Below, piece after piece: positions 10,136 to 27,110 of a stretch of DNA of 64,000 nt. The stretch covers positions 2,765,558-2,829,557 of the forward strand of contig CP102060.1 in the NCBI GenBank assembly GCA_024579835.1, read 5' to 3'. This stretch comes from Clostridiaceae bacterium HFYG-1003 (GTDB lineage Bacteria; Bacillota; Clostridia; Clostridiales; Clostridiaceae). The stretch's first letter is position 1. Every line of letters begins with the position of its first letter. Below the pieces are notes generated by a model. The model was given only the letters and a program-made list of their open reading frames with translations, was not told where the DNA came from and made no database searches. Both the position numbers and the translations under genes were made by a program.

Positions 10136-11143
10136 CTAATTCAGAACGAAGCCGTACTTGACGGGGTCGGTTTCGTCGATGACGAACTGATTGAACCCGG
10201 TAATCCAGGCCGAACCGGTGATCTGTGGAATGAATGCGTCAAACTCGCCCACGGTTGTCGTTTCCACGAGCTTGCCACGGAAGATGGTTCCGGTGATGGA
10301 CTCATAGACAAACTCTTCGCCCAGTTTCAGTTCGCCCTTGGCGCCCAGGGCGGCCATTTTCGCACTGGTTCCGGTGCCGCAGGGTGAGCGGTCAATCTGG
10401 CGTTCCCCGAAAATAACCACATTTTTGTAATTGGCTTCCGGATGAGTCGGTGCGCCATAGATTTCCACCAGGTCCACCGTATTGATGTGCGGCAGCGTCG
10501 GGTGCTGCACCCGGATTTCGCGGTTGATGACATCGCGCAGCTCCGTGGCCATTTTCAGAAGCCGTTCGCTGTTTTCCGGTTCGATGGTGCAGCCGAAGTA
10601 CTCATCGCGGATCAGGGCAAAGAACGATCCGCCAAACGCGATGTCAAAGGTCACTTCCCCCAGCAGCGGAGTGACCAGACGGACATCCCGGCGATACAGG
10701 AAGGACGGGACATTGGTTACTGTTACGGATCGGGCCTTGCTGCCCTCGACCCGGACCTGAGCCCGGACCAAACCGGCCGGCGCGTCCAGCGTCACATGGG
10801 TTACCGGCTCCACCATGGGGACAATGCCGGTCTCGACCGCGGCCGTCGCCGCGCCGATGGTGCCGTGTCCGCACATGTTGAGATAGCCCTTGCCATCCAT
10901 AAATATAATTCCGAAGTCCGCTTCCTCACTGACGGGTGAGGTCAGGACTGAGCCGAACATGTTGGCATGACCCCTGGGCTCCAGCATGACGGCCCGGCGC
11001 AGCCAGTCCAGATTCTGTTCCAGATATTCCCGTTTTTCGGCCATGGTCTGGCCCGGGATATTCGGGACGCCTCCCGTGATAATCCGGGTTGGCTCCCCGG
11101 CGGTATGAGAATCGATTGCTTGTAACATCCTGGTGATAACCAC
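10136..11143 (-). CDS. prdF: Proline racemase PrdF
   Basis: 335-residue cofactor-independent racemase that interconverts L- and D-proline, supplying D-proline for reduction. The two catalytic cysteines lie in the diagnostic motifs NMCGHGTIG and RSPCGTGTSAK. I use the GTG at 11143 because AGGAGG stands 7 bases before it; an ATG five codons later has no such site. It is the last gene of the prd operon and lies 96 bases after prdB. Hydroxyproline epimerases share the fold, but the position inside a proline reductase cluster favours proline racemase. Confidence 0.93.
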   Translation of the reverse strand: MVITRMLQAIDSHTAGEPTRIITGGVPNIPGQTMAEKREYLEQNLDWLRRAVMLEPRGHANMFGSVLTSPVSEEADFGIIFMDGKGYLNMCGHGTIGAATAAVETGIVPMVEPVTHVTLDAPAGLVRAQVRVEGSKARSVTVTNVPSFLYRRDVRLVTPLLGEVTFDIAFGGSFFALIRDEYFGCTIEPENSERLLKMATELRDVINREIRVQHPTLPHINTVDLVEIYGAPTHPEANYKNVVIFGERQIDRSPCGTGTSAKMAALGAKGELKLGEEFVYESITGTIFRGKLVETTTVGEFDAFIPQITGSAWITGFNQFVIDETDPVKYGFVLN

Positions 11144-11239
11144 GATTTCCCCTCCTGATGGTTTATAAACCTGTCTATGTTTTTTCTCGTTCGCTCAGCG
11201 GGTTGTCTTTGGTTTGATCCTGCCGGAAGCTGCCTGGGG

Positions 11240-11965
11240 CTAGACCCGAGCCATATATTCAAAGGGCAGCGGGACAATCATGCCGGCCGAAGAAATCTGG
11301 AACAGCTGCTCCAGGGTGGCCTTTAAAATGGCAGTCTGCATTTCAATGTTGTTCGGTTCACCGGCATTCGCCCCCATGGGTACCCGGGGGGCAACCGCTC
11401 TGGGCGTGCCGCTCTGCCGGACAACCGGCGGAAGTGCTGCGATGATGATGGTAGGAATCCCCGATTCCTCGATCGCCCGCTGTACAATGACAGCGGAACG
11501 ATGACAGGTGCCTCAGCCAGCTGTCAGGACAACGGCATCCACCGCTTCTTCCTTCAGTTTTTTCGCGATGGCCGGACCGGTTTCATGCTGAAACTTGTCC
11601 TGGTCGCCGCCGCCGCCCATAAAGCCGTAATGCACCGGGGCAACTTCCTTGATGAAGCCCTCCCGGGCCAGCTCCTGCAGCCGGATAATGGGAAACATCG
11701 CGTTGATGTCCTTGTTGACATCGCCGTTGTCATAGCCGCCGTGCGAGACCATGAGGTCCTGGGCCCGGACATCGCCCGGGATCTCCCGGAATGAAAAGTC
11801 ACCGGCCAGATTGAACCGCTCGTCAGTTTTCAGATGCACCCCCGCTGCTGAAGCGATGGCGATGCGCATATTCTTGAGTTCCCCGGTCACCTCGGTCCAG
11901 ACCGGCGTAGGCGTTACGGGAACATAGATCTCAGACTGCAGACCCTTGATTATCGTCAAATCCAT
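11240..11965 (-). CDS. prdB: D-proline reductase selenoprotein subunit PrdB
   Basis: Catalytic selenoprotein subunit that cleaves the D-proline ring to 5-aminovalerate together with PrdA. Read through the in-frame UGA at 11515-11513 the gene encodes 241 residues and starts MDLTIIKGLQSEIYVPVTP at the ATG at 11965, with AGGAGG 6 bases upstream. The UGA falls in the expected place, LTAG-U-GTCHRSAVIVQ, and the frame continues with conserved sequence (IVPLPFEYMARV at the end) to a TAG at 11242. A hairpin suited to selenocysteine insertion follows the UGA. A plain translation would wrongly stop after 150 residues. Its start overlaps the preceding small gene by 35 bases. Confidence 0.95.
11477..11496 (-). 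promoter_or_regulatory. Candidate bacterial SECIS hairpin in prdB mRNA
   Basis: In the mRNA, the arms CCGCUGU and ACAGCGG enclose a six-base loop CAUUGU, starting 16 bases after the UGA. Bacterial SECIS elements lie at this distance inside the coding sequence and usually carry a G in the apical loop, as here. Recognition by SelB is inferred. Confidence 0.6.
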
Positions 11966-12221
11966 TGGTTTCCTCCTGATGTTTTCTGATGCTGTTCTGC
12001 TGATAGGTTTCATCGATCTCTCCGGAGAGCACTTCCGGATAGCTCATGACGAAGCCGACTTCCATTCCGACCTGGAGCGGCCAGTCCGTGATGATCATGC
12101 GCCGGGGCAGCCGGACATGACCCAGGCGGCCCTTCAGATCCAGGGCAACGCCGCCGTCGGTCACTTCGACAATGATGCCTTCCTGATAGTGTTCCGTCGA
12201 AAGATATTTCAGCTTTTCCAT
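11931..12221 (-). CDS. Small protein of the proline reductase cluster (CBO2463/CBO2479-like)
   Basis: 96-residue protein starting MEKLKYLSTEHYQEGIIVEVTD, with a small beta-rich core (DLKGRLGHVRLPRRMIITDW, VGFVMSYPEV) and a polar tail. Its ATG overlaps the prdA stop (TAATG) and its end overlaps the prdB start, so it is firmly inside the operon. It resembles the small conserved proteins seen in clostridial prd clusters under the CBO2463/CBO2479 name; I recall that family from memory and rate the match as probable. Function is unknown; an assembly or electron-transfer accessory role for PrdA/PrdB would fit the context. Confidence 0.7.
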   Translation of the reverse strand: MEKLKYLSTEHYQEGIIVEVTDGGVALDLKGRLGHVRLPRRMIITDWPLQVGMEVGFVMSYPEVLSGEIDETYQQNSIRKHQEETNGFDDNQGSAV

Positions 12222-14044
12222 TATTCTTCCTTCTCGTAGATCTCGGCCCTCTTTCTGGATTTTTCCAGAACCTGCTCGTTGTCCTCGAGCCGGATGGTCC
12301 GGCCGGTGGCTTCCTCGATCACCTTGATGTTGTTCAGCTTCACCTGGCTGGTCCATTTGCGCTCCGCTTCCTTCACCGGTTCCCCGGCCATGACGGCTTT
12401 GATCATGGCAATGGCGCGGACGGCATCTTCCGGGGCCAGACAGTTGTTTTCCAGGATTTCGTTCTCGATTCCCTGTTTCGACTTGTTGTTGTCCACCATG
12501 TGCTTCATGTAGTCATTGCCCACGACCAGAGCGCCCTGAACGGCGCTGAAGGTCATGCCCACCACCGGGTAGCCCCGGCGGCCTACTTCTTCGTGATGCG
12601 CGGCAAAGTCAATGTGGTTGTTGCCGAAACCTTCGGTGGTAATGATGACGCCGTCGGGATCAATGGCTTCCACCGTCATGCCCAGACGGCGGGAGACGTA
12701 GAATTTTTCTGAGTTGATCTGGGGGGAGCCGACGAACAGAACGCCGCACAGGTCAATTTCCGGATCGGCCATGGCTTCCAGCACCAGAGGCTCCCGGAAA
12801 TAATGGCGGGAGGTTTCCTTGGAAGCGGGTCCGATGCAGGTCAGGGCGTGAATTCCCCCGTCCAGAACCTCCAGCGGCGAGAGCATGACCGGCAGATTGC
12901 CCAGGTCGACATTGGCCTTGGCGCCAAAGGTTCCCACCGGTTCCAGCGGCAGGATCAGATTGTCATGCATTGCGCCCTGTCCCATGATCTCCTTAACGAT
13001 GAGGAGCTTTTTGCGGCCCCGCCGTCTGACCTGGCGGAAGTCCTCATCCCGCACCATCACGCAGTCCTGCGCTTCCTTCAGCGCACTCCTGATTTCTTCG
13101 GTGATGAAGTCGGAGGCCTTGTGGGCCGCCAGCGGGCCGGGCCGTTCCATGTTGGTTCCGGCCTTGATCGTGACCTGCGTCTTGATGAAGAGATCGCCAT
13201 GGTCCGGTGAACCGGGCCGGCCCCACATAATGTTGCGGTCCATCGGTCCCTCGGAGGAACCGAATTCACCGATCTGAACGCCGTTTTCATCGGTTCCGGT
13301 CACCACCAGCACCGCGCCGTCAATGACCCGGGTCACGCCAACGCCGAGCTCGCCTTCGACTTTCACCGCCACGGGCTGAACATCCATGATGGTCTCGGAA
13401 TACTTGCTGTAGTCAGCCGGCGTGATGATTTCCAGTTTCAGGTCCGTCACCAGTTCCTGGGAAGCCACGGCATCGTGCTCAATTCCTTCCCGAATAAAGA
13501 GGGTTGTCCCCTGAATCTTTGTCTCGGGGCCGCGCCGGATCTCCTCAATTCGGATATAGCTGCGCTTCAGGCTGCGCAGCACCTGTTCGGAGTATTCCGG
13601 CTCACTGGGAGCTGCCGGTGCTGCCATCCCTTGAGACAGTCCCATCCCTACGGGAATTTTCAGGTCGATGTCGCGGCCTTCCCCGATATGAATATGAATG
13701 TACTGGGTTCCCTGGGCGGATCCCTCCACCTGAGGGGCGACTGACGCCGCGGGCTGAACCGGGACCGGTGCCTGAGAAGTCAGGGCGCTGACCGCAGGCA
13801 GCTCCACCACCGCCGGGGTCAGCGGGGTCAGCGCGTCCAATGTGGCCTTCAGCTTCCCGCCGAGGACTTCCCCGATGCTCAGGGCATCCGTCGGGAACTC
13901 CAGCAGTCCGGTTTCCAGAAGGTCCGGGAAAATGGCCGGATCCTCCAGGATTGACGCTTCAATGACCGAGCCGGCTTCAAACCGGCAGCAGGTGACTGCC
14001 TTGTCCCCGGCATGGGCCAGGGCTGTTTCCTTCGTAATCGACAT
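12221..14044 (-). CDS. prdA: D-proline reductase proprotein PrdA
   Basis: 607-residue precursor that is cleaved into two subunits, the new N-terminus of one becoming a pyruvoyl group that binds D-proline. The predicted processing site is the Cys at about residue 403 in HALTCIGPASKETSRHY, close to the Cys421 reported for Clostridium sticklandii PrdA. The start MSITKETALAHAGDKAVTCC at 14044 has AGGAGG 7 bases upstream. A proline/alanine-rich linker lies near residues 88-110. It follows prdC after 123 bases and overlaps the next small gene by one base. Confidence 0.94.
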   Translation of the reverse strand: MSITKETALAHAGDKAVTCCRFEAGSVIEASILEDPAIFPDLLETGLLEFPTDALSIGEVLGGKLKATLDALTPLTPAVVELPAVSALTSQAPVPVQPAASVAPQVEGSAQGTQYIHIHIGEGRDIDLKIPVGMGLSQGMAAPAAPSEPEYSEQVLRSLKRSYIRIEEIRRGPETKIQGTTLFIREGIEHDAVASQELVTDLKLEIITPADYSKYSETIMDVQPVAVKVEGELGVGVTRVIDGAVLVVTGTDENGVQIGEFGSSEGPMDRNIMWGRPGSPDHGDLFIKTQVTIKAGTNMERPGPLAAHKASDFITEEIRSALKEAQDCVMVRDEDFRQVRRRGRKKLLIVKEIMGQGAMHDNLILPLEPVGTFGAKANVDLGNLPVMLSPLEVLDGGIHALTCIGPASKETSRHYFREPLVLEAMADPEIDLCGVLFVGSPQINSEKFYVSRRLGMTVEAIDPDGVIITTEGFGNNHIDFAAHHEEVGRRGYPVVGMTFSAVQGALVVGNDYMKHMVDNNKSKQGIENEILENNCLAPEDAVRAIAMIKAVMAGEPVKEAERKWTSQVKLNNIKVIEEATGRTIRLEDNEQVLEKSRKRAEIYEKEE

Positions 14045-14167
14045 GTATGTTCCTCCTCTGATCGAAGGTCCGCCGGGGACCTTTCGTGAAATCATCTATT
14101 TTGCAGTATGGTTCGGGAACCGGCAGTCCAGGGTTTCCCCTTCGTGCCTGGTTTCATGCGGAATGGA

Positions 14168-15493
14168 TTAAAGCTGGGTTTCGTCGAAGGTGCGCAGCAC
14201 CGGCTGGCCCATGGTGAGCAGCACATGGTCGGTGATATGTCGCACTTCCAGGCCCAGTTTGGGGGCCGACCCCATGACGGTGTTGGTGCAGTCGGAACAG
14301 TGTCCGATGAGGATCGTCTGTGCTCCCAGTTTTTTCAGAGCCAGAACTTTCTCAGCCTGTCCAGGGCAGTTTCCCGGGTTCATGCACTTATAAGTGCCGC
14401 GGCTTTCGACGGCGTTCTTGCAGACCTCGTGGCCGACAATCTCGCCGCCCATGGAGCGGGCAACCTGTTCCAGCCTCGGATAAAGCGGACCGCAGGCGCA
14501 CTGGATAATGCCGACGCGGGAGGCTTCCAGCTGTTCAAAGGGCTGGGTCACGAGGATGCCGCCCAGGGTTTTTCCAACAGTATCTTCGCTGCTGCCTCGC
14601 CGTCCGGTGTAGGGACCGCCCAGCAGGATTTCGCCGGTCTCGCCGACGAATCCGCCGAAGGCTTCCAGCAGTTCGGCAACGGATTGCCCCAGGGGAACCC
14701 GCAGCACTATGGTCTCGCCCGGATCCAGATCCTTCAGCCGGCCGGCCACTGTCAGGTATTTATCCATGAGGGGCTTGCCCTCATCCACCGCATCGCGGAT
14801 GGCGTAAAGGGTCTCGACGTTGAAAACCACCGCATTGGCCGCTGACGGCAGCTGAGTCGTTTCCAGGAGCTGGTTCAGGGTATCGCGGATCAGCGCCCGC
14901 TCCTCGCCCACCGGATAGACATTGCGCAGCGGGAGCACGCGGATGTTCTGAATCCCCTGGGCTTTGATGGCCGAAGTCAGCAGCTTGATTTCCGTGCGGT
15001 GCTTCAGTTTCATGCCGATGATGCCCTTGCCGGCGCCGGTGGCTTCCATGGCAATGGCAACAGCGCGCAGCAGTCCCTCGGGATCCTGCCGGATCTGATG
15101 CATGTTGTGCTCCAGCACCGGTTCGCATTCGGCCGCGTTGCACAGGACATAGCCGGACGGATCCAGGCGGGTGCCCAGTTTGACGTAGCTGGGGAAACCG
15201 GCACCGCCCAGGCCGATGATGCCTGCCCGCCGAACCGTGTCGGCGACTGACAAGCCCGGCTCCAGGCGGACATAATCAAATTCGGTCTGATCCGGCGGTG
15301 CCTCAATCACGATATAGCCGTCGGCGGCTGATGTCACGATTCCATTGGCGGGACTGTGCAAATCCACTCCCAGGGTGGTTTCATCGCAGCGGGCAATGAC
15401 CTGGCCGCGCCGTACGTGTTCTCCGGCTCTGACCACAGCCTGGGGCGGCACCCCAATACCCTGCTTCAGAGCAATCTTCAGTTGGTGTGTCAT
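14168..15493 (-). CDS. prdC: Proline reductase-associated electron transfer protein PrdC (RnfC-like)
   Basis: 441-residue RnfC-like protein thought to pass electrons from NADH or ferredoxin to proline reductase. The N-terminal part holds the RnfC/NqrA-type NAD/flavin-binding pattern (GIIGLGGAGFPSYVKL, then CNAAECEPVLEHN) and the C-terminal half has cysteine groups CACGP, CKNAV, CMNPGNCPGQ and HCSDCTN, probably cluster or dithiol sites. AAGGAG precedes the ATG at 15493. Several clostridial PrdC proteins contain selenocysteine; this frame is open throughout with no UGA, so this one uses cysteine. It is the first gene of the prd operon. Confidence 0.9.
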   Translation of the reverse strand: MTHQLKIALKQGIGVPPQAVVRAGEHVRRGQVIARCDETTLGVDLHSPANGIVTSAADGYIVIEAPPDQTEFDYVRLEPGLSVADTVRRAGIIGLGGAGFPSYVKLGTRLDPSGYVLCNAAECEPVLEHNMHQIRQDPEGLLRAVAIAMEATGAGKGIIGMKLKHRTEIKLLTSAIKAQGIQNIRVLPLRNVYPVGEERALIRDTLNQLLETTQLPSAANAVVFNVETLYAIRDAVDEGKPLMDKYLTVAGRLKDLDPGETIVLRVPLGQSVAELLEAFGGFVGETGEILLGGPYTGRRGSSEDTVGKTLGGILVTQPFEQLEASRVGIIQCACGPLYPRLEQVARSMGGEIVGHEVCKNAVESRGTYKCMNPGNCPGQAEKVLALKKLGAQTILIGHCSDCTNTVMGSAPKLGLEVRHITDHVLLTMGQPVLRTFDETQL

Positions 15494-16031
15494 GTTGGCT
15501 CCTTTGTTAAACGGGACCGCTGTTAAAATAATAAAATAATCCGGGTGATCCCTGTCAATTCGCAACGCTCTACCAATTATTGTTGCGAGTTTTTCAAAAA
15601 TGAAAACGATATCTTGAGACACAATAAAAAACGAAGTTTCGTTGACGCCGAAAATTCGCTGCCTGTGGTTTATTTTGCTACATACATTCTATCTCATTCG
15701 AACGATTTGTTAAAGAAAAAACTAATATTCTGTCGCCCGCAGGCGAACAAAAAATTCTGCCTGTCAGATCAACGCTTTCATTTTAGCATAACTTTTGCCC
15801 TTCCCTGTTCTAATTTTGTGTTCCTGTTTTCCTTCCCGCAGAAACTGTATCTATTTTTCTTCTCATTACCGATCGGCTTCCAGACCAGCATCTGATTTTT
15901 GCGGGCAAAGGCCTGATCCAGAATCGGATCCAATCCGCAGCCGCCCGCTCAGCCCGTTTTGGAATTTGCTATACTTAAAGAACACACCCGGTTGCAAACC
16001 CGGGAATAAAAAAAAGAAGTGAGGCAGCAGC
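15494..16031. promoter_or_regulatory. prd operon upstream region with TCGCAAC/GTTGCGA palindrome
   Basis: This 538-base AT-rich divergent spacer separates the prd operon from a plus-strand gene. An inverted repeat CGCAAC (15561-15566) / GTTGCG (15582-15587), extended by one base on each side, lies about 70 bases upstream of the prdC start and could bind a dimeric regulator. The minus-strand TTGGTAGAGCGTTGC next to it resembles a sigma-54 -24/-12 element but its spacing is one base short. No coding region is supported. Confidence 0.5.
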
Positions 16032-19681: not shown

Positions 19682-20638
19682 CTACTGATTTCCTTTGAAA
19701 TAATGCAGATCCAGGGCCTGGGACAGGTATTCCAGGGTCTTGATGCCGCACAGACTGTTGCCCTTCTCATCCAGGGCGGGACTGTAGACCCCCAGGCCGG
19801 CCTTGCCCTGTACCAGGGCGAGAATGCCTCCGCCCACGCCGCTTTTGGCCGGCATGCCGACTTTAATGGCAAATTCCCCGGAACTGTCATACATGCCACA
19901 GGTGACCATGAGTGTTTTGACCAGAGTGGCATAATAAGCGCTGAGAATCGGCTCTCCGGTGAGCGGATCCTGCCCGTCATTGGCCAGGATCATGCCAAAC
20001 CGGGCCAGATCCCTGGTATTGACCAGGATGGAGCACATCCGGAAGTAGGCATCCAGGGTCGCTTCCACATCGCCCTGAATGACCTGGTCGGATTTCATGA
20101 AATAGGCCAGAGACCGGTTCAGGTCACCGGTTTCCTTTTCCGACCGGTACACCGTCTCATCAATGGTCAGGGGGCGGCGGGCCAGGCCTTCGAGGAATTC
20201 CATGAACTGGACGAAGGTTCTGCCCTCCTCCAGGATCAGCCCCATCGTCGCGATGGCGCCGGCATTGATGAAGGGATTCAGAGGATGGTGCCCCTTGGTT
20301 TCCAGCTTGACGATGGAGTTGAAGGAATCGCCGGTCGGTTCCACGCCAACCCGGGAGAAGACTTTCTCATGACCCAATTCAAGCAGGGCGTAGATCAGGA
20401 GCAGGGCCTTGGAAATGCTCTGCATGGTGAACATCTGATCCCAGTGGCCGCGGCAGTGGAACTCCCCATCCCGGGTGAGAACGCAGATGCCCAAATGGTC
20501 AGCGGGGGCTCCAGCCAGGGCCGGGATATAATCAGCCACTTTGCCCTGTCCCAGATAACCGGATCCATAGGCAAGCGCGTCGGTCAGTCCCTGATCCATC
20601 GCTTGGGTCAGATCGAATGTTTTTTTGAGTTCTTCCAT
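19682..20638 (-). CDS. glsA: Glutaminase A
   Basis: 318-residue serine-dependent beta-lactamase-fold glutaminase converting glutamine to glutamate and ammonia. The S-x-x-K nucleophile motif is TMQSISK (Ser74, Lys77), with conserved PFINAGAI, YRSEKETGDLN and GMPAKSGVGGGI segments. GGAGG lies 7 bases before the ATG. The length is normal for the family. A strong terminator follows. In an amino-acid fermenter it would feed glutamate catabolism. Confidence 0.95.
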   Translation of the reverse strand: MEELKKTFDLTQAMDQGLTDALAYGSGYLGQGKVADYIPALAGAPADHLGICVLTRDGEFHCRGHWDQMFTMQSISKALLLIYALLELGHEKVFSRVGVEPTGDSFNSIVKLETKGHHPLNPFINAGAIATMGLILEEGRTFVQFMEFLEGLARRPLTIDETVYRSEKETGDLNRSLAYFMKSDQVIQGDVEATLDAYFRMCSILVNTRDLARFGMILANDGQDPLTGEPILSAYYATLVKTLMVTCGMYDSSGEFAIKVGMPAKSGVGGGILALVQGKAGLGVYSPALDEKGNSLCGIKTLEYLSQALDLHYFKGNQ

Positions 20639-20807
20639 AGCATTTCCTCCGTCCTGAATACAATCCCTTCTATCTTACCGAGGGGCATTCAAAAAGACAA
20701 ACCGTGAGCTCACCCCCGCGGTTCGTGAAACATCATATTTACAACAAAAACCGGCGGGCTTTAATACATTTTTGGTTTGAGTCCGCCTTCGTTTTGTTTT
20801 TTTGAAA

Positions 20808-21257
20808 TTACCTGTTATTTTTTTGACTGGCCGGTGGTTTCGGTCCGGCTGGTTTCGGTCCGGCTGGTTTCGTCCCGGCGGGTTCCGCTCCGGCTGCTTC
20901 CTCCTGGCGGGAGAGCACCCAGTCCCGCAACACCAGGGCATGGTTATATTCCCGGGACTTGGCGGCATAGAGAAACACCACGGGCCCATCCGCCAGATAA
21001 ATTGCCATCTGCTCCAGAAAGTCCGCCGCCGCAGGGTTTGCGTTCAACTCCTCCAGGTAGGCTTCCCGGAACCGGGGAAAGGTCTCGGGATCATGGGCAA
21101 AGGTCCGGCGCAGTTCCGTGGATGGCGCCACTGCTTTGGCCCAGTCGGTCAGCTCAAGATCCTCCTTGCGTTTCCCTCTGGGCCAGAGCCGGTCTACCAG
21201 AATCCGCCTGCCCGCTGCAATCTCCTCATACACCCGGCTTACCTCAATGACTGCCAT
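20808..21257 (-). CDS. DUF488 family protein (YeaO-like) with PAGPK repeat tail
   Basis: 149-residue DUF488 protein; the family core is clear in RRILVDRLWPRGKRKEDLELTDW, TELRRTFAHDPETFPRFREAYLEEL and VVFLYAAKSREYNHALVL. Function is not established. The last 28 residues are a low-complexity tail of repeated PAG(T/P)KP units, encoded by four 15-base tandem repeats and absent from typical members. AGGAGG precedes the ATG. Confidence 0.85.
   Translation of the reverse strand: MAVIEVSRVYEEIAAGRRILVDRLWPRGKRKEDLELTDWAKAVAPSTELRRTFAHDPETFPRFREAYLEELNANPAAADFLEQMAIYLADGPVVFLYAAKSREYNHALVLRDWVLSRQEEAAGAEPAGTKPAGPKPAGPKPPASQKNNR
20836..20895. repeat. Four tandem 15-bp repeats in the DUF488 gene
   Basis: Units GGTTTCGGTCCGGCT, the same again, GGTTTCGTCCCGGCG and GGTTCCGCTCCGGCT follow each other in frame and encode the proline-rich tail of the DUF488 protein. 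Confidence 0.9.
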
Positions 21258-21383
21258 GCCTGGTCTCCTCCCTGTTCCCTTTGATTAACTACATTGTAAC
21301 CCTTTTCTCCCGGAAAAAGCGTAAGAATAAAGTACGGGATCCCAAGGGATCCAATAGAAAAACCGTACAGGGAGGAACCTGAC

Positions 21384-22643
21384 ATGATAAAAAAAGCCGC
21401 CCCTTTCGTCCTGAGTCTGTCAATTCTGGCCGGCTGTGCTCCGGCTGCCCCGGCTTCGGCCTTTTTGAAGAAAGTTGCGGTCAGTCCAACGGCCACCACT
21501 GTCCAGGTCCCGTCGGACATCCACGCCAGCATCTTTGCGCTGGCCAAGGAGATTACCCCGGCGTACTTCAGCGAATCCAAGAAGCAGAACCAGATCTTTT
21601 CCCCACTGTCCCTGTGGACGGCGCTGGGTGTTCTGCGGGAAGGCGCAGCCGGTGAAACGCGGACGGAGCTGGACCAACTGATGAAGCTGTCCGCGGACTT
21701 TGACTCTTCCAAGGTGATCCCGGACTTGTCCAAAAGCCTCAATTTCATGACGGCTTCGAAACTGCCCAAGGCCAAACCGGATGATTCCAAGTACGGCGTC
21801 CTTTTAACGAATGGGATTTTCTTTGACCAACGCTTTGCCAAAAACATCCGCTCCAGTTTTTTTGAGACGGCAGCCTCGGTCTGGGGTACGGAAACGGCCC
21901 ATGTTGACTTTACCAAAGAAACCGAAACCAAATCGCTTATCCGCCAGTGGGTCAGTGACAAGACCGAGCAGTTCATCGCGGATTATGACGCCACCTTCGC
22001 CACGGATGGTTCCGCCATCCTCAATATCTACAATGTCCTGTTCCTGAAGGACCTGTGGCTGGAGCCTTTCCAGAAACTGGAGAATCAGACCTTCCACGCT
22101 CCGACCGGCGATGTTTCGGTGCCGTTCATGGGCCGTCTTGCCGAAGGCGCTCACTATGTCGATCATTCCAAAGCCCAGGCTGTCGCTTTCCCCGGAGAAC
22201 AGGGCATTCGCGTCTGGTTCATGCTGCCGAAGAACGAATTGCAGCCGGTGGACCTGGTGGCTGACCTGGATGGCATTCTGGCCGGCGGAGCGCCGACCTA
22301 TGTCAACTTCAAGGCACCGGTCCTGGATCTGGACGGAGAGAATCTGTCGCTGAAGGACCTGCTGGAAGCCAAGGGCTATACCAAAATGTTCCATTCGGCG
22401 GATCTGTCCCGCATGCTGGACGGAGTCAACGCGGAGGTCTCCGAGATCAAGCAGAAGACGAAACTGCAGATGGACGAAAAGGGCTTCAAGGCTGCGGCCG
22501 TCACCGAAATTGGCATTCTGGAGACCTCCGGACCGGCCGATCCCCCGGTTGAATTCATCGCTGACCGGCCCTATCTTATCGTCATTGAGTACCAGGGCCT
22601 GCCTCTGTTCATTGCTCAGATCAAACAGCCGTCAGAAAAATAA
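21384..22643 (+). CDS. Lipoprotein serpin 1
   Basis: 419-residue serpin-fold protein with a lipoprotein signal peptide ending in the lipobox LAGC (Cys18), so it should be anchored outside the cytoplasmic membrane. Serpin hallmarks are NQIFSPLSLWTALGVLREGA, NIYNVLFLKDLW, the shutter/breach segments and the C-terminal DRPYLIVIEYQGLPLFIAQI. The reactive-loop hinge reads EKGFKAAAVT from residue 365, with an unusual Phe where inhibitory serpins normally have Thr or Ser (P14). It is the first of three tandem paralogues; GGAGG precedes the ATG. Confidence 0.92.
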   Translation: MIKKAAPFVLSLSILAGCAPAAPASAFLKKVAVSPTATTVQVPSDIHASIFALAKEITPAYFSESKKQNQIFSPLSLWTALGVLREGAAGETRTELDQLMKLSADFDSSKVIPDLSKSLNFMTASKLPKAKPDDSKYGVLLTNGIFFDQRFAKNIRSSFFETAASVWGTETAHVDFTKETETKSLIRQWVSDKTEQFIADYDATFATDGSAILNIYNVLFLKDLWLEPFQKLENQTFHAPTGDVSVPFMGRLAEGAHYVDHSKAQAVAFPGEQGIRVWFMLPKNELQPVDLVADLDGILAGGAPTYVNFKAPVLDLDGENLSLKDLLEAKGYTKMFHSADLSRMLDGVNAEVSEIKQKTKLQMDEKGFKAAAVTEIGILETSGPADPPVEFIADRPYLIVIEYQGLPLFIAQIKQPSEK

Positions 22644-22677
22644 CGGCAACCGCCTCGCCTGAAACGGAGGAATTCTT

Positions 22678-23934
22678 ATGAAGCGACCGATCATCCCACT
22701 GATTCTCGGACTGTCGCTGCTGGCGGGCTGCGCGCCGCAGAGCCCGGCTTCGGCCTTTTTGAAAAAAGTCCCGGTCAATGATTCCGCCCCGACCGTTCAG
22801 GTCCCAGCGGAGATTCACGCCAGCATCTTTGCCCTGACCAGGGAAATTACCCCAGCCTATTTCAGGGAATCCGCGAAGCAGAATCAGATCTTTTCCCCGT
22901 TGTCCCTGTGGACCGCCCTGGGGGTTCTGCGGGAAGGCGCAGCCGGAGAAACCCTGGCGGAGCTCGACCGTCTGATGAAGCTGTCGGCGGCCTTTGACTC
23001 CTCGAAAGTGATCCCGGATTTGTCCAAAAGCTTAAATTTCATGACAGCTTCGAAATTGCCCAAAGACAAGCCGGATGATTCCCGGTACGGCATCCTTCTG
23101 ACCAACGGCATTTTCTTCGACCAGCGCTATGCCGCCAAGATCCGCTCCGCCTACCTGGAAACGGCTGCCTCGGTCTGGGGCACGGAAACGGCCCGAGTTG
23201 ACTTTACCAAAGCGGCCGAAACCAAGGAAATCATCCGGCAGTGGGTCAGTGACAAGACCCAGGAGTTCATCCCGAACTACGAAGCGAGCTTTGCCACCGA
23301 CGGATCCGCCATCCTCAATATCTACAATGTGCTGTTTCTCAAGGACTTATGGCTGATGCCCTTCCAGAAGCTCCAGAATCAGACCTTCCATGCGCCTTCC
23401 GGCGATGTGTCGGTGCCGTTCATGGGACGCCTGGCCGAGGATGCCCACTACGTCGATCACGCCAGAGCTCAGGCTGTCGCCTTCCGCGGCGAGCAGGGCA
23501 TCCGGGTCTGGTTCCTGCTGCCGAAGAACGGGCTGCCACCGGTGGATCTGGTGGCCGACCTGGATGAAATTCTGGCGGGCGGAGAGCAGACTTACCTCCA
23601 CTTCAAGGCTCCGCTCCTGGATCTGGACGGGGAGAACCTGTCCCTGAAAGACCTGCTCCAGGCCAAAGGCTATACCAAAATGTTCCAAGAAGCGGATCTG
23701 TCCCGCATGCTGGACGGTATCTATGGCGAAGTATCGGATATCAAGCAGAAGACCCGGCTGCAGATGGATGAAAAAGGCTTCAAGGCCGCTGCGGTCACCC
23801 AGATCAGCATTGATACCTCGGCACCGCCGGATCCGCCCCTGGAAATCACCGTCGACCGGCCCTATCTCATCGTCATTGAATACCAGGGCCTGCCTCTGTT
23901 TGTCGCTCAGATCAAACAGCCGTCAGAACCATAG
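22678..23934 (+). CDS. Lipoprotein serpin 2
   Basis: 418-residue paralogue of the preceding gene, 34 bases downstream, again with a lipobox LAGC at Cys18. The body is very similar to the first copy, whereas the reactive loop after the hinge EKGFKAAAVT changes to QISIDTSAPPDPPLEI, one residue shorter than in copy 1. The scissile bond would lie near TS-A by simple counting, which is only approximate. The ribosome site is GGAGG. Probably inhibits or senses extracellular serine or cysteine proteases, possibly its own or those of neighbours. Confidence 0.92.
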   Translation: MKRPIIPLILGLSLLAGCAPQSPASAFLKKVPVNDSAPTVQVPAEIHASIFALTREITPAYFRESAKQNQIFSPLSLWTALGVLREGAAGETLAELDRLMKLSAAFDSSKVIPDLSKSLNFMTASKLPKDKPDDSRYGILLTNGIFFDQRYAAKIRSAYLETAASVWGTETARVDFTKAAETKEIIRQWVSDKTQEFIPNYEASFATDGSAILNIYNVLFLKDLWLMPFQKLQNQTFHAPSGDVSVPFMGRLAEDAHYVDHARAQAVAFRGEQGIRVWFLLPKNGLPPVDLVADLDEILAGGEQTYLHFKAPLLDLDGENLSLKDLLQAKGYTKMFQEADLSRMLDGIYGEVSDIKQKTRLQMDEKGFKAAAVTQISIDTSAPPDPPLEITVDRPYLIVIEYQGLPLFVAQIKQPSEP

Positions 23935-23969
23935 CCTCACTCACCACGTTTGAAAACGGAGGAATCCAG

Positions 23970-25229
23970 ATGAAACGATCCACCATTCCATTGATTCTGG
24001 GGCTGTCCCTGCTGGCCGGCTGTGCGCCGGTCACGCCGGCTTCGGTGTTCTTAAAGCAGGTTCCGGTGAATTCAGCCCGAACTGCGGTTGAGGTCCCTTC
24101 CGAGATCCGCTCCAGTCTGTATGAGCTGGCGGAGGAAATTACCCCGGCCTATTTCGCGGTCTCGGAGAAGAAAAATCAGATCTTTTCCCCGCTGTCCCTG
24201 TGGACGGCCTTGGGTGTTCTGCGGGAAGGCGCGGCCGGGGAAACGCTGGCGGAACTGAACCGCCTGATGAAGCTGCCGGCTGGTTTTGATTCCTCGAAGG
24301 TCATTCCGGACCTGAGCAGAAGTCTCAATTTCATGACGGCATCGAAATTGCTCCGGGACAAGCCGGATGATTCCAAGTACGGCATACGCCTGACCAACGG
24401 AATCTTTTTCGATTCACGCTATGCTGCCAACATCAAATCCCAGTATTTCGAAACCGCCGCCTCCGTCTGGAGCGCGGAAACCGCTCAGGTCGACTTCACC
24501 AAAGAAGAAGAAACCAAGGAAATCATCCGGCAATGGGTCAGTGACAAGACGGACCGGTTCATGGAGGATTATGAAGCGACCTTTGAGACCGATGGCTCTG
24601 CCATTCTCAATATCTATAACGTGCTCTACCTGACCGATCTGTGGCTGGTTCCTTTCCAGAAGCTTCAAAATCAGACCTTCCACGCTCCCTCCGGTGACGT
24701 CCAGGTTCCCTTTGTGGGCCGACTGGCCGATGGGACGGACTATGTGGATCATGCCAAAGCCCAGGCGGTCGCCTTCCCCGGCGAACAGGGCATCCGGGTC
24801 TGGTTCCTCCTGCCCAGGGGAGAAGCCGAACCGCTGGATCTGATTCCAGAGCTGGCCTCGATTCTGTCCGAAGGGTCCCCGGCCCTGGTGGATTTCAAGG
24901 CTCCCGCCCTGGATATCAATGGCGAGAACCTGTCCCTGAAGAAACTCCTGATCGACAAAGGCTACACCAACATGTTCCTGTCCGCGGACCTGTCGAACAT
25001 GCTCAGCGGCGTGACGGCTTCCGTCACCGAAATCAAGCAGAAAACCAAACTGCAGCTGGATGAAAAAGGCTTCAAGGCCGCTGCCGTCACTGAAATCGGC
25101 GTCGGCAAAACCTCCCTCCCCGGGGACAATAAGATTGAGTTCACCCTGGATCGCCCCTACCTCCTGGTCATCGAGTACCAGGGACTCCCCCTGTTCATAT
25201 CCCGAATCCAGGATCCGTCAGAAAAGTAG
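23970..25229 (+). CDS. Lipoprotein serpin 3
   Basis: 419-residue third paralogue, 35 bases downstream, with lipobox LAGC at Cys18. The loop after the hinge EKGFKAAAVT is EIGVGKTSLPGDNKIEF, different in charge from both other copies, which suggests a different target protease. Its body is the most divergent of the three (for example LIPELASILSEGSPALVDF). A strong terminator follows, so the three genes form one transcription unit beginning around 21370. Confidence 0.92.
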   Translation: MKRSTIPLILGLSLLAGCAPVTPASVFLKQVPVNSARTAVEVPSEIRSSLYELAEEITPAYFAVSEKKNQIFSPLSLWTALGVLREGAAGETLAELNRLMKLPAGFDSSKVIPDLSRSLNFMTASKLLRDKPDDSKYGIRLTNGIFFDSRYAANIKSQYFETAASVWSAETAQVDFTKEEETKEIIRQWVSDKTDRFMEDYEATFETDGSAILNIYNVLYLTDLWLVPFQKLQNQTFHAPSGDVQVPFVGRLADGTDYVDHAKAQAVAFPGEQGIRVWFLLPRGEAEPLDLIPELASILSEGSPALVDFKAPALDINGENLSLKKLLIDKGYTNMFLSADLSNMLSGVTASVTEIKQKTKLQLDEKGFKAAAVTEIGVGKTSLPGDNKIEFTLDRPYLLVIEYQGLPLFISRIQDPSEK

Positions 25230-25300
25230 CCCATCACTTCACCACTCAGTATCCACGGTACCCTTCACCCAGGACGTACTGACGAAGAGAACCTGCAATG

Positions 25301-25348
25301 AAAACGACCTGTTCCGGACTGACATGGACCGGAACAGGTCGTTTTTTT
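25301..25348 (+). terminator. Terminator of the serpin operon
   Basis: Arms AAAACGACCTGTTCCGG and CCGGAACAGGTCGTTTT pair perfectly over 17 bases around an 11-base loop and are followed by a run of T, 71 bases after the third serpin stop. Confidence 0.95.
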
Positions 25349-25445
25349 GTCTGAACTATGTTATGACTCAAGTTCTGGCGTAAGTTCTGGCTTAAGATCT
25401 GAAATCATGGAACACATCAGGGTGAGAGGGAACCGGACGGAGTGT

Positions 25446-25643
25446 TTACCACAGGTCCTCCTGCCCGTCAGACTGCGGCGGGGTCTGAGTTTCCAGTGGC
25501 TTGCCCTGGTCGTTGGTTTCGGCTGCCGGGTGGGTCTGGGTGATTTCTTTTCGGATCTCATTCAGGGTTTTGAGGTAGATTCCCGCGATCAGAGTCATGG
25601 CGGCTCCGATCAGGAGAGAGGTTCTGCGCTCGGATTTTGACAT
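25446..25643 (-). CDS. Small single-pass membrane protein, unknown
   Basis: 65-residue protein with one N-terminal hydrophobic helix (RTSLLIGAAMTLIAGIYL) and a polar, glutamine- and proline-rich tail. GGGAGG stands 7 bases before the ATG at 25643, which supports translation. I do not recognise the family. It lies alone between the serpin terminator and the metallophosphoesterase gene. Confidence 0.55.
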   Translation of the reverse strand: MSKSERRTSLLIGAAMTLIAGIYLKTLNEIRKEITQTHPAAETNDQGKPLETQTPPQSDGQEDLW

Positions 25644-25892
25644 GGGACATCCTCCCTTGTGCAGTGTGGTTCGGGTGCTGGTCTTCCGGCTCAAAGTCTT
25701 GTCTTCTATACCCCTACTATACATCGAATCCGGCGCATATGGTATTCTTGAAGCAGGAACATCCCGCTTAATTTCGCACCCTTCCCTCAGATAGCGGCGT
25801 TGGCCGGACCGCTTGGTTCAACAGCTCCGGCGTTCGCCCGGAAGTAACGGGCCGGACTGCTGTTCCAGTTTGCTCAAAAAAGGAAGACTTTC

Positions 25893-27110
25893 ATGAATTA
25901 TAAATTGCCTCTCAACATTCTTCACGTTGCCGATCTGCATCTGCTGTCCGCCCGTCTCCATGACAAAGGCGATGCCCTGCATCGCGTCAGTCTGCAGGGT
26001 GACGGCAAAGTTCTGCCCTATTCAGCGGAAATCGTGGAGGCGTTCACCTGGTATGTGCTTCGCCAGAAACCGGATCTATTGGTCATCAGCGGCGATCTGA
26101 CTTTCAACGGGGAATTGGAGAGCCATCTGGATGTGGTGGAACAGCTGCACCGGATTCAGTCCGGGGGAATTCCGGTAGCGCTGATTCCCGGGAATCACGA
26201 TATCGCCATCGCTTCGGCGGCCGCATTCCTGAAGGGAAGCATCCGGTCGGCGCCGTCCATCAGTGAGCCAGAATTCCTGGAACTGTACCGGGCCTTCGGC
26301 TATGACCGTGCCCGCTGGCGGGATCCGGCTTCCTTCAGCTGTATCCTGGAACTGAATGACGGGCTGCGGCTGGCTTTGATTGATACCAACACCCGCCTGG
26401 CACCGGGCAGGATTTCTCCGGCAACGCTGGAATGGCTGGACCGGTCCCTGGGGGAAGCTTCCGCTCAGGGCGAAACCATTCTGACGGCGACCCATCAAAA
26501 TATTCTGGTCCATAATGAAAAGTTCACCAGGGGATTCATCATCGACAACCATCTGGAGCTGATGCAGGTTCTCGATAAGTATCGGATCCGGCTGAATCTG
26601 TCCGGTCATATCCATCTGCAGCACCTGGCTCTGACTCCGGAGGGTCTCAACGAAACTGCCACCGGGGCGTTGTCGGCGTTTCCTCATTTGATGGCTCATG
26701 TGACCATTGATGAGGAACTGGTCCTGCAGTACCGGACCGAATCGCTGAACGTGTCCGGCTGGGCCGCCGGCCAGAGAGTGAATGACCCTAATCTGATGGA
26801 TTTTGAGGCTTTCTCCAGTCAGTACTTTTACGGGATTTCAGCGCTGAAGACCGGTGCTGATCTGCTCCAGGATCCTTCCCTCAGCGAACCGGAGGTGATT
26901 CGAATGGCTGAATTCGCGGCGGAAGTGACCCGGGCCTATTTCTCCGGAACCCTGCATCTGCTGCTGCAGGATCCGCAGCGTCACCAGGGCTATCGCCTGT
27001 GGGAAGAAAAAGGGCGTCACCTGCGGTTCTGGCATTATCTCAATTCCTTCCTGATTGCTCCGCTCAAGAATGAGAATGAGCTGCGGCTGTCGCTGCGGCC
27101 GAAGCCCTGA
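25893..27110 (+). CDS. Calcineurin-like metallophosphoesterase
   Basis: 405-residue phosphoesterase with all metal-binding motifs of the calcineurin-like superfamily: DLH (Asp14, His16), GDLTFNGE, GNHD, the ATHQN histidine and SGHIHLQH. No signal peptide or membrane helix is seen. The C-terminal 130 residues are helical and not recognised. AAGGAAG precedes the ATG. Its end overlaps the convergent cbiA gene by 47 bases. The substrate is unknown. Confidence 0.88.
   Translation: MNYKLPLNILHVADLHLLSARLHDKGDALHRVSLQGDGKVLPYSAEIVEAFTWYVLRQKPDLLVISGDLTFNGELESHLDVVEQLHRIQSGGIPVALIPGNHDIAIASAAAFLKGSIRSAPSISEPEFLELYRAFGYDRARWRDPASFSCILELNDGLRLALIDTNTRLAPGRISPATLEWLDRSLGEASAQGETILTATHQNILVHNEKFTRGFIIDNHLELMQVLDKYRIRLNLSGHIHLQHLALTPEGLNETATGALSAFPHLMAHVTIDEELVLQYRTESLNVSGWAAGQRVNDPNLMDFEAFSSQYFYGISALKTGADLLQDPSLSEPEVIRMAEFAAEVTRAYFSGTLHLLLQDPQRHQGYRLWEEKGRHLRFWHYLNSFLIAPLKNENELRLSLRPKP

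Follow-up and report, generated by a model that had tools for sequence, protein, structure and literature searches.

Serpins inhibit proteases by a suicide mechanism: once the reactive loop is cut, it inserts into beta-sheet A and the protease is trapped covalently. A serpin faces a trade-off between a metastable native state and rapid insertion of the loop, and inhibitory serpins are described as usually having a small, uncharged residue at position P14 of the hinge. Here we describe three tandem serpin genes (S1, S2, and S3) in a 64,000-nucleotide stretch of contig CP102060.1 from Clostridiaceae bacterium HFYG-1003 (hereafter, the window); all three have phenylalanine at P14. Two other bacterial serpins, miropin from Tannerella forsythia (structure 5ncs) and tengpin (2pee), share the serpin fold with S1, with 20–23% identity in structural alignments. 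Miropin is reported to inhibit both serine and cysteine proteases (PMC6718151). Tengpin has threonine at P14 and a tyrosine in the breach, while S1 has phenylalanine and glycine instead. A single clostridial genome, that of Clostridium thermocellum, also has three serpins (1–3), for which a role in holding back proteases around the cellulosome has been proposed (PMC6718151). However, going by their description, two of them are predicted to be cellulosomal and not lipoproteins. Finally, in corticosteroid-binding globulin (CBG) and thyroxine-binding globulin (TBG), P14 and the tyrosine of s2B/s3B are believed to cooperate in loop insertion (PMC4245140), but these proteins are hormone carriers, and in them the tyrosine is present.

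We propose that S1–S3 are lineage-specific, membrane-anchored serpins of the inhibitory type, and that they most likely use the ordinary suicide-substrate mechanism (we give this a probability of roughly 0.6). The genes and their lipoprotein signals are:

21384..22643, + strand: serpin 1 (S1), an open reading frame (ORF) of 419 amino acids, 175 bits to Pfam PF00079
22678..23934, + strand: serpin 2 (S2), an ORF of 418 amino acids, 165 bits to PF00079
23970..25229, + strand: serpin 3 (S3), an ORF of 419 amino acids, 158 bits to PF00079
21384..21437, + strand: predicted lipoprotein signal of S1, lipobox LSILAGC, with the codon for Cys18 at 21435-21437
22678..22731, + strand: predicted lipoprotein signal of S2, lipobox LSLLAGC, with Cys18
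23970..24023, + strand: predicted lipoprotein signal of S3, lipobox LSLLAGC, with Cys18

The initial annotation described three tandem serpin genes that encode lipoproteins with phenylalanine at P14, and all of these features are there. The bit scores of 158–175 compare with a cut-off of 27 bits for PF00079 (Serpin), which we take to be the same superfamily as MEROPS I4, and the matches run from profile position 14, 16, or 18 (in S1, S2, and S3, respectively) through to the end (370 of 370). No NCBIfam model matched S1–S3. Gaps of 34 and 35 bp lie between the genes, a terminator-like hairpin follows the third, and no other gene in the whole 3.43 Mb, one-contig genome matches PF00079. The lipoboxes were called from the sequence with a regular expression, and each ends in L-A-G-C with the cysteine at residue 18. 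If the lipoboxes are functional, each serpin would display its exposed loop as bait outside the cell. A protease that cut near the conserved Thr-Ser bond of the loop (see below) would then be trapped covalently as the cut loop inserted into beta-sheet A.

An AlphaFold2 model of S1, built from a 48-row alignment, is a serpin with a mean confidence (pLDDT) of 83.7. The best match from Foldseek was antithrombin (E = 3.2e-26), with CBG, alpha-1-antitrypsin, and miropin within the first ten, and VIA-align gave Z scores of 36.3–41.4 among the matches listed, the top one over 345 residues. The hinge, EKGFKAAAVT (P17 to P8), is identical in S1–S3 and retains glutamate at P17, glycine at P15, and alanines at P12–P10. 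The residue at P14 is uncharged, as expected for an inhibitory serpin, but it is not small: it is phenylalanine in S1–S3 and also in R1 and R2, two serpins from a metagenome-assembled genome (MAG) of the same genus (G188). We will refer to these five proteins as the clade. We also considered whether the loop might be abnormally long or short, but its length is normal: there are 30–31 residues from P15 to the aromatic residue of the RP[FY] motif, versus 30–33 in most relatives. (The regular expression for loop length miscalled the hinge in several rows, left 8 of 81 uncalled, and gave some wrong lengths, so we counted P14 residues from alignments instead.) The positions of interest are:

22476..22505, + strand: S1 hinge P17–P8, from the alignment, with the codon for P14 (Phe368) at 22485-22487
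23779-23781 and 25071-25073, + strand: codons for P14 Phe in S2 and S3, from the alignment
22194..22196, + strand: S1 codon for Gly271, at the breach-tyrosine position, from MAFFT; phmmer to conserpin gives the same register
23488-23490 and 24780-24782, + strand: codons for the breach-tyrosine position in S2 and S3

The breach tyrosine is Tyr244 in the numbering of alpha-1-antitrypsin. It is reported to be a conserved residue, present in more than 70% of serpins, in a breach pocket that lies between sheets A and B (PMC11753496). In TBG and CBG, the equivalent tyrosine is believed to be pushed aside by P14 upon loop insertion (PMC4245140). We compared these two positions across bacterial serpins. 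From 142 distinct serpin frames, we dropped five that lacked the hinge (four of which also lacked the breach column), which left 137 rows. P14 was threonine in 88 of these, serine in 9, valine in 16, alanine in 7, cysteine in 7, isoleucine in 5, and phenylalanine in 5; the five with phenylalanine were the five members of the clade. The residue at the breach position follows the residue at P14. With threonine or serine at P14, it is tyrosine (93 rows) or phenylalanine (4 rows). With alanine it is phenylalanine (7 rows), and with cysteine it is phenylalanine (6) or leucine (1). With valine it is leucine (13) or methionine (3), and with isoleucine it is methionine (2), valine (2), or leucine (1). 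With phenylalanine it is glycine (4) or serine (1). No row of the 137 had the breach tyrosine without threonine or serine at P14.

The two positions fell into matched classes in 48 of 48 rows of the smaller alignment and in 133 of 137 rows of the wider set. By mutual information with average product correction (MI-APC), they ranked first of 69,006 pairs of columns (0.530, versus 0.411 for the next pair), and with the five P14-Phe rows removed they still ranked first (of 70,500 pairs). Also, the standard deviation of the summed side-chain volume at P14 and the breach position was 14, versus 33 if the two were independent, although this is not corrected for kinship among the sequences. The series looks like compensation for size: in the clade, the loop and not sheet B would carry the bulk. 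Phenylalanine at P14 could be tolerated because the large tyrosine that it would otherwise meet during insertion is replaced by glycine or serine, and in S1, Phe368 would pack against Gly271. This arrangement seems compatible with insertion because of the displacement believed to occur in TBG and CBG; because leucine or isoleucine at P14 of CBG is reported to amplify the effect and not to prevent insertion (PMC4245140); and because, in a library of P14 variants of PAI-1, it was charged residues that were reported to turn the inhibitor into a substrate (PMC6379291). The suggestion in the initial annotation that phenylalanine at P14 might imply a different mechanism is therefore not supported.

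More tentatively, loop insertion might be tuned across bacterial serpins by P14 and the breach tyrosine acting as a latch with compensating volumes. The latch of this genus would be inside out: the aromatic plug would have shifted from sheet B to the loop, and the phenylalanine at P14 would dock in the vacated tyrosine pocket and set both the stability of the native state and the rate of insertion. We think that this broader idea has somewhat less than an even chance of being correct. We searched the literature and found no report of co-variation between P14 and Tyr244, which does not prove that there is none in print.

Several observations weigh against our main reading. If the rows with phenylalanine, valine, cysteine, or isoleucine at P14 are removed, the pair drops to rank 253 of 70,500. 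On a tree of the 137 rows that was built without the two columns, there were just 5 changes of class on each side, so there are few events to count. Among random pairings, we obtained three supported independent pairs, of which all three agreed in nearly all pairings and two in a few, a number too small to reach significance (median p = 0.25). Overall, the association is strong when rows are counted but modest when only independent events are. Four of the 137 rows break the pairing, with threonine at P14 and phenylalanine in the breach. Human CBG is also a misfit, as it is reported to have valine at P14 and to retain the tyrosine (PMC4245140), so the pairing is not universal. And the clade has diverged elsewhere in the core. 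In the 48-row alignment, conservation among the 43 other serpins is 80% or higher in 49 columns; all five members have the consensus residue in 34 of these, but in the other 15 at least one member does not. The departures include Ser→Gly144, Trp→Phe146, and Phe→Tyr397, each of which is at a position that is invariant in the other serpins (43 of 43). The breach lysine (lysine in 40 of the 43 others and arginine in 3) is replaced by valine, leucine, alanine, alanine, and threonine, so the breach of the clade differs at more than one residue.

As a side observation, the four exceptional rows (Thr with Phe) come from a small clade of serpins (at L039, L070, and L140) and are the only exceptions to the pairing. 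L039 is a 3 kb contig with two of these serpins and a third, truncated serpin with the same phenylalanine in the breach.

Given these departures, we considered that S1–S3 might be substrate-type serpins or might not inhibit at all: changes in the hinge and breach would slow insertion so far that the proteins would be cleaved as surface decoys or have some other role. The restriction of P14 phenylalanine to these five of the 137 serpins, and the loss of the breach lysine and of other otherwise-invariant residues, fit with this. So does a report that hinge mutants of a mite serpin (T368E + A372V, or T368P, at P14) were strongly impaired against chymotrypsin (PMC3394726). However, the rest of the hinge is intact, the residue at P14 is uncharged and is fixed in all five proteins, a small residue at 271 offsets its bulk, and the length of the loop is maintained. 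So we consider a substrate-type role to be unlikely.

Another alternative is that these are ligand-gated or conformation-sensing serpins, in which the phenylalanine at P14 already occupies the tyrosine's empty site in the native state and partial insertion of the loop is the resting state, as in antithrombin or the hormone-binding serpins. The model of S1 does have a short predicted strand at residues 367–370 (P15–P12), and the coupling between P14 and the tyrosine is reported to serve ligand release in TBG and CBG (PMC4245140). However, residues 371–383 of the loop are modeled with pLDDT under 50, and we find this alternative quite improbable.

If S1–S3 are inhibitors, as we propose, then their targets should depend on the reactive loops. 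The variable part of each loop, as used in our loop comparison, is:

22506..22562, + strand: S1 variable loop, EIGILETSGPADPPVEFIA
23800..23853, + strand: S2 variable loop, QISIDTSAPPDPPLEITV, which is one residue shorter
25092..25148, + strand: S3 variable loop, EIGVGKTSLPGDNKIEFTL

The initial annotation stated that the three proteins share a near-identical body and hinge and differ right after the hinge. The hinge is indeed identical. However, the bodies are only 84% (S1-S2), 76% (S1-S3), or 75% (S2-S3) identical, with 0.69–1.08 synonymous changes per site (dS), so the copies are not near-identical, and they are not very young either. We ruled out recent gene conversion among S1–S3: there are silent differences in 10 of 10 windows of 40 codons, and the longest tracts of identical DNA are 22–28 bases. 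The difference after the hinge is real. The 19 columns that follow the hinge are the lowest-identity window out of 383 (mean identity 0.44), and 13 of these 19 columns vary, as compared to 96 of the 332 other columns of the domain, including the hinge (p = 0.0006, Fisher's exact test). The N-terminal linker is variable as well (25 of 50 columns). Six columns of the loop are invariant: isoleucine at P6, the aligned P1-P1' Thr-Ser, proline at P3', aspartate at P5', and glutamate at P9'. So the loops do not differ at the aligned P1-P1', although with its shorter loop, S2 has serine at P1 if positions are counted from the hinge (and threonine if aligned).

Comparing rates in the loop and in the body was the check that had been proposed, and it gave a mixed answer. 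There is an excess of change in the loop: nonsynonymous divergence (dN) between paralogues is 0.27–0.64 in the loop and 0.09–0.18 in the body. However, the ratio dN/dS (omega) for the loop is 0.24 for S1-S2 and 0.31 for S2-S3 (S1-S3 was not computable), with these values resting on 18–19 codons and hence rough. Across all five genes of the clade, omega for the loop was under 1 (0.24–0.56) in each of the 5 of 10 pairs for which it could be computed, which is another point against our reading. The loop evolves faster than the body, without any sign of positive selection.

These ratios raise the possibility that the array serves for dosage, with all three serpins sharing one protease target via P1 Thr and P1' Ser, and with relaxed, neutral drift elsewhere in the loop. 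This would be compatible with our proposal. Besides the low values of omega in the two computable pairs and the aligned P1-P1' that S1–S3 have in common, paralogous loops outpace their bodies in two other sets of arrays too (see below). However, a loop can be maintained for a long time: the loops of S1 and R1 are identical at 15 of 19 positions, even though their bodies are just 66% identical. Furthermore, the loops of S2, S3, and R2 differ from the loop that S1 and R1 share. On balance we doubt that dosage with drift is the explanation, although we take it more seriously than the two alternatives above.

The retained loop can be placed on a tree. In the 48-row tree, S1–S3, R1, and R2 form a single clade (support 100/100), and the branch leading to it is long, at 2.09 changes per column. 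Within the clade, S1 pairs with S2 (98/99) and R1 pairs with R2 (98/87; in the quicker 137-row tree, support for R1-R2 was only 86), which places the duplications within each lineage. The loops of S2 and S3 match that of R1 at only 10 of 19 positions. Also, the excess of S1-R1 identity over the identity between paralogues is greatest at the loop; only 3 of the 383 windows reach that level, each overlapping the loop. The most economical interpretation is that the older loop survives in S1 and R1, whereas S2, S3, and R2 gained new ones. After duplication, then, one copy would have kept its loop and the others would have changed around a Thr-Ser that they all retained, which would yield a few baits that are related without being identical. 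Early duplications, with ancient gene conversion of the bodies afterwards, would give a similar picture.

In G188 (contig JAAZGI010000411.1), R1 and R2 are in tandem near the start of the contig and are followed by a metallophosphoesterase-like gene. R2 (L034:1394-2647) lacks the cysteine of a lipobox and has arginine at P1, if counted from the hinge; it may be secreted and have another specificity. In a third genome of the genus (G187), we found neither a serpin nor the metallophosphoesterase-like neighbor. A profile built from the five serpins scored 765–825 bits on those five proteins, and none of the other proteins among the matches listed scored above 133 bits. This search covered 225 genomes from the order, 391 from the class, and 398 from the phylum (these sets overlap, and for the class and the phylum only matches with E ≤ 1e-20 were listed). 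Scanning genome contigs with a three-row alignment found nothing, and scanning with a five-row alignment found only the same-genus MAG and a distant serpin from Bacteroides. Among the genomes searched, the clade is confined to this genus.

Aside from P14, the arrangement is less unusual. Serpins had been described as uncommon, but that is not so in this bacterial family: 51 of 206 genomes have matches to PF00079 (47 above the cut-off). Serpin genes lie within about 2 kb of each other in G000 (the source genome) and G188, and also in G115, G184, G190, G191, and G204. By a loose regular expression, 28 of 48 serpins have a lipobox-like signal (4 of the 5 in the clade and 24 of the 43 others). The arrays in G184, G190, and G191 resemble S1–S3 in that adjacent paralogues differ more in their loops than in their bodies, while the loops of orthologues are largely kept. 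In these two sets of arrays, identity between paralogues was 0.11–0.33 in the loop and 0.38–0.62 in the body, while between orthologues it was 0.81 and 0.67 in the loop and 0.73 and 0.76 in the body. They differ in having threonine at P14 with tyrosine in the breach, and they are far from the P14-Phe clade. Because lipoboxes, arrays, and divergence of loops recur across the family, tandem lipoprotein serpins with diverged loops are ordinary in this family.

We also looked for possible targets. The source genome has eight matches to S8 subtilases, in frames of 623, 745, 1393, 1405, 1631, 1954, 2009, and 2011 amino acids. It also has the one papain-like protein that we found among the genomes of the genus. 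However, the organism's own subtilases are not obvious targets, as the two families do not track each other across the genus: G188 has the serpins and no S8 matches, and G187 has 18 S8 matches and no serpins. Both genomes count against our reading, although the comparison involves three genomes, one of which is fragmented and 87% complete. The 18 matches in G187 are at separate places, with very long frames of up to 2134 amino acids.

Some of the other serpins in our comparison (L035:871-2803 in G188, and those at L077, L079, L085, L047, and L097) appear, by eye, to have an N-terminal stretch and a membrane-spanning segment. Such membrane-type serpins lie directly downstream of a sigma-factor-like ORF in 6 of 9 loci, and the other three loci have no upstream ORF. 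When scanned whole, the upstream proteins of L035, L079, and L047 matched Pfam's sigma-70 regions 2 and 4 above the cut-off; the partial upstream protein of L097 was below it, and for L077 and L085 the upstream ORFs were identified by eye. In the five membrane-type serpins that we scanned, no anti-sigma family matched, only Serpin. These may be serpin ectodomains on protease-sensing anti-sigma factors.

The features that flank the array in the window are:

25301..25345, + strand: intrinsic-terminator-like hairpin leading into a T-run, 3' of S3 (-29.7 kcal/mol, z = -6.3, equaled by 0 of 200 shuffles)
25893..27110, + strand: metallophosphoesterase-like gene beside the array, named by eye, with 52% identity to the neighbor in the same-genus MAG

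A scan of 20600-26000 for sigma-70-like promoters found none (2.2 were expected by chance), and it also did not list the long hairpin at 25301-25345. On the - strand at 10136-15622, we identified by eye what we take to be proline racemase and components of D-proline reductase (PrdA-like and PrdC-like). The window also has a glutaminase gene, again read by eye. Together, these genes suggest that the host, a member of the Clostridiaceae, ferments amino acids or peptides.

Our best reading is that S1–S3 act as inhibitors, anchored at the cell surface, whose loops have changed. The swap between hinge and breach is their notable feature: a bulky residue is fixed at P14 and a matching vacancy is found in the breach, while other serpins show a graded series of sizes, which suggests a two-residue rule for P14 and the breach. 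And the array is a natural set of paralogues that may reveal how changes in the loop, away from P1, retune the targets of serpins on a bacterial surface.

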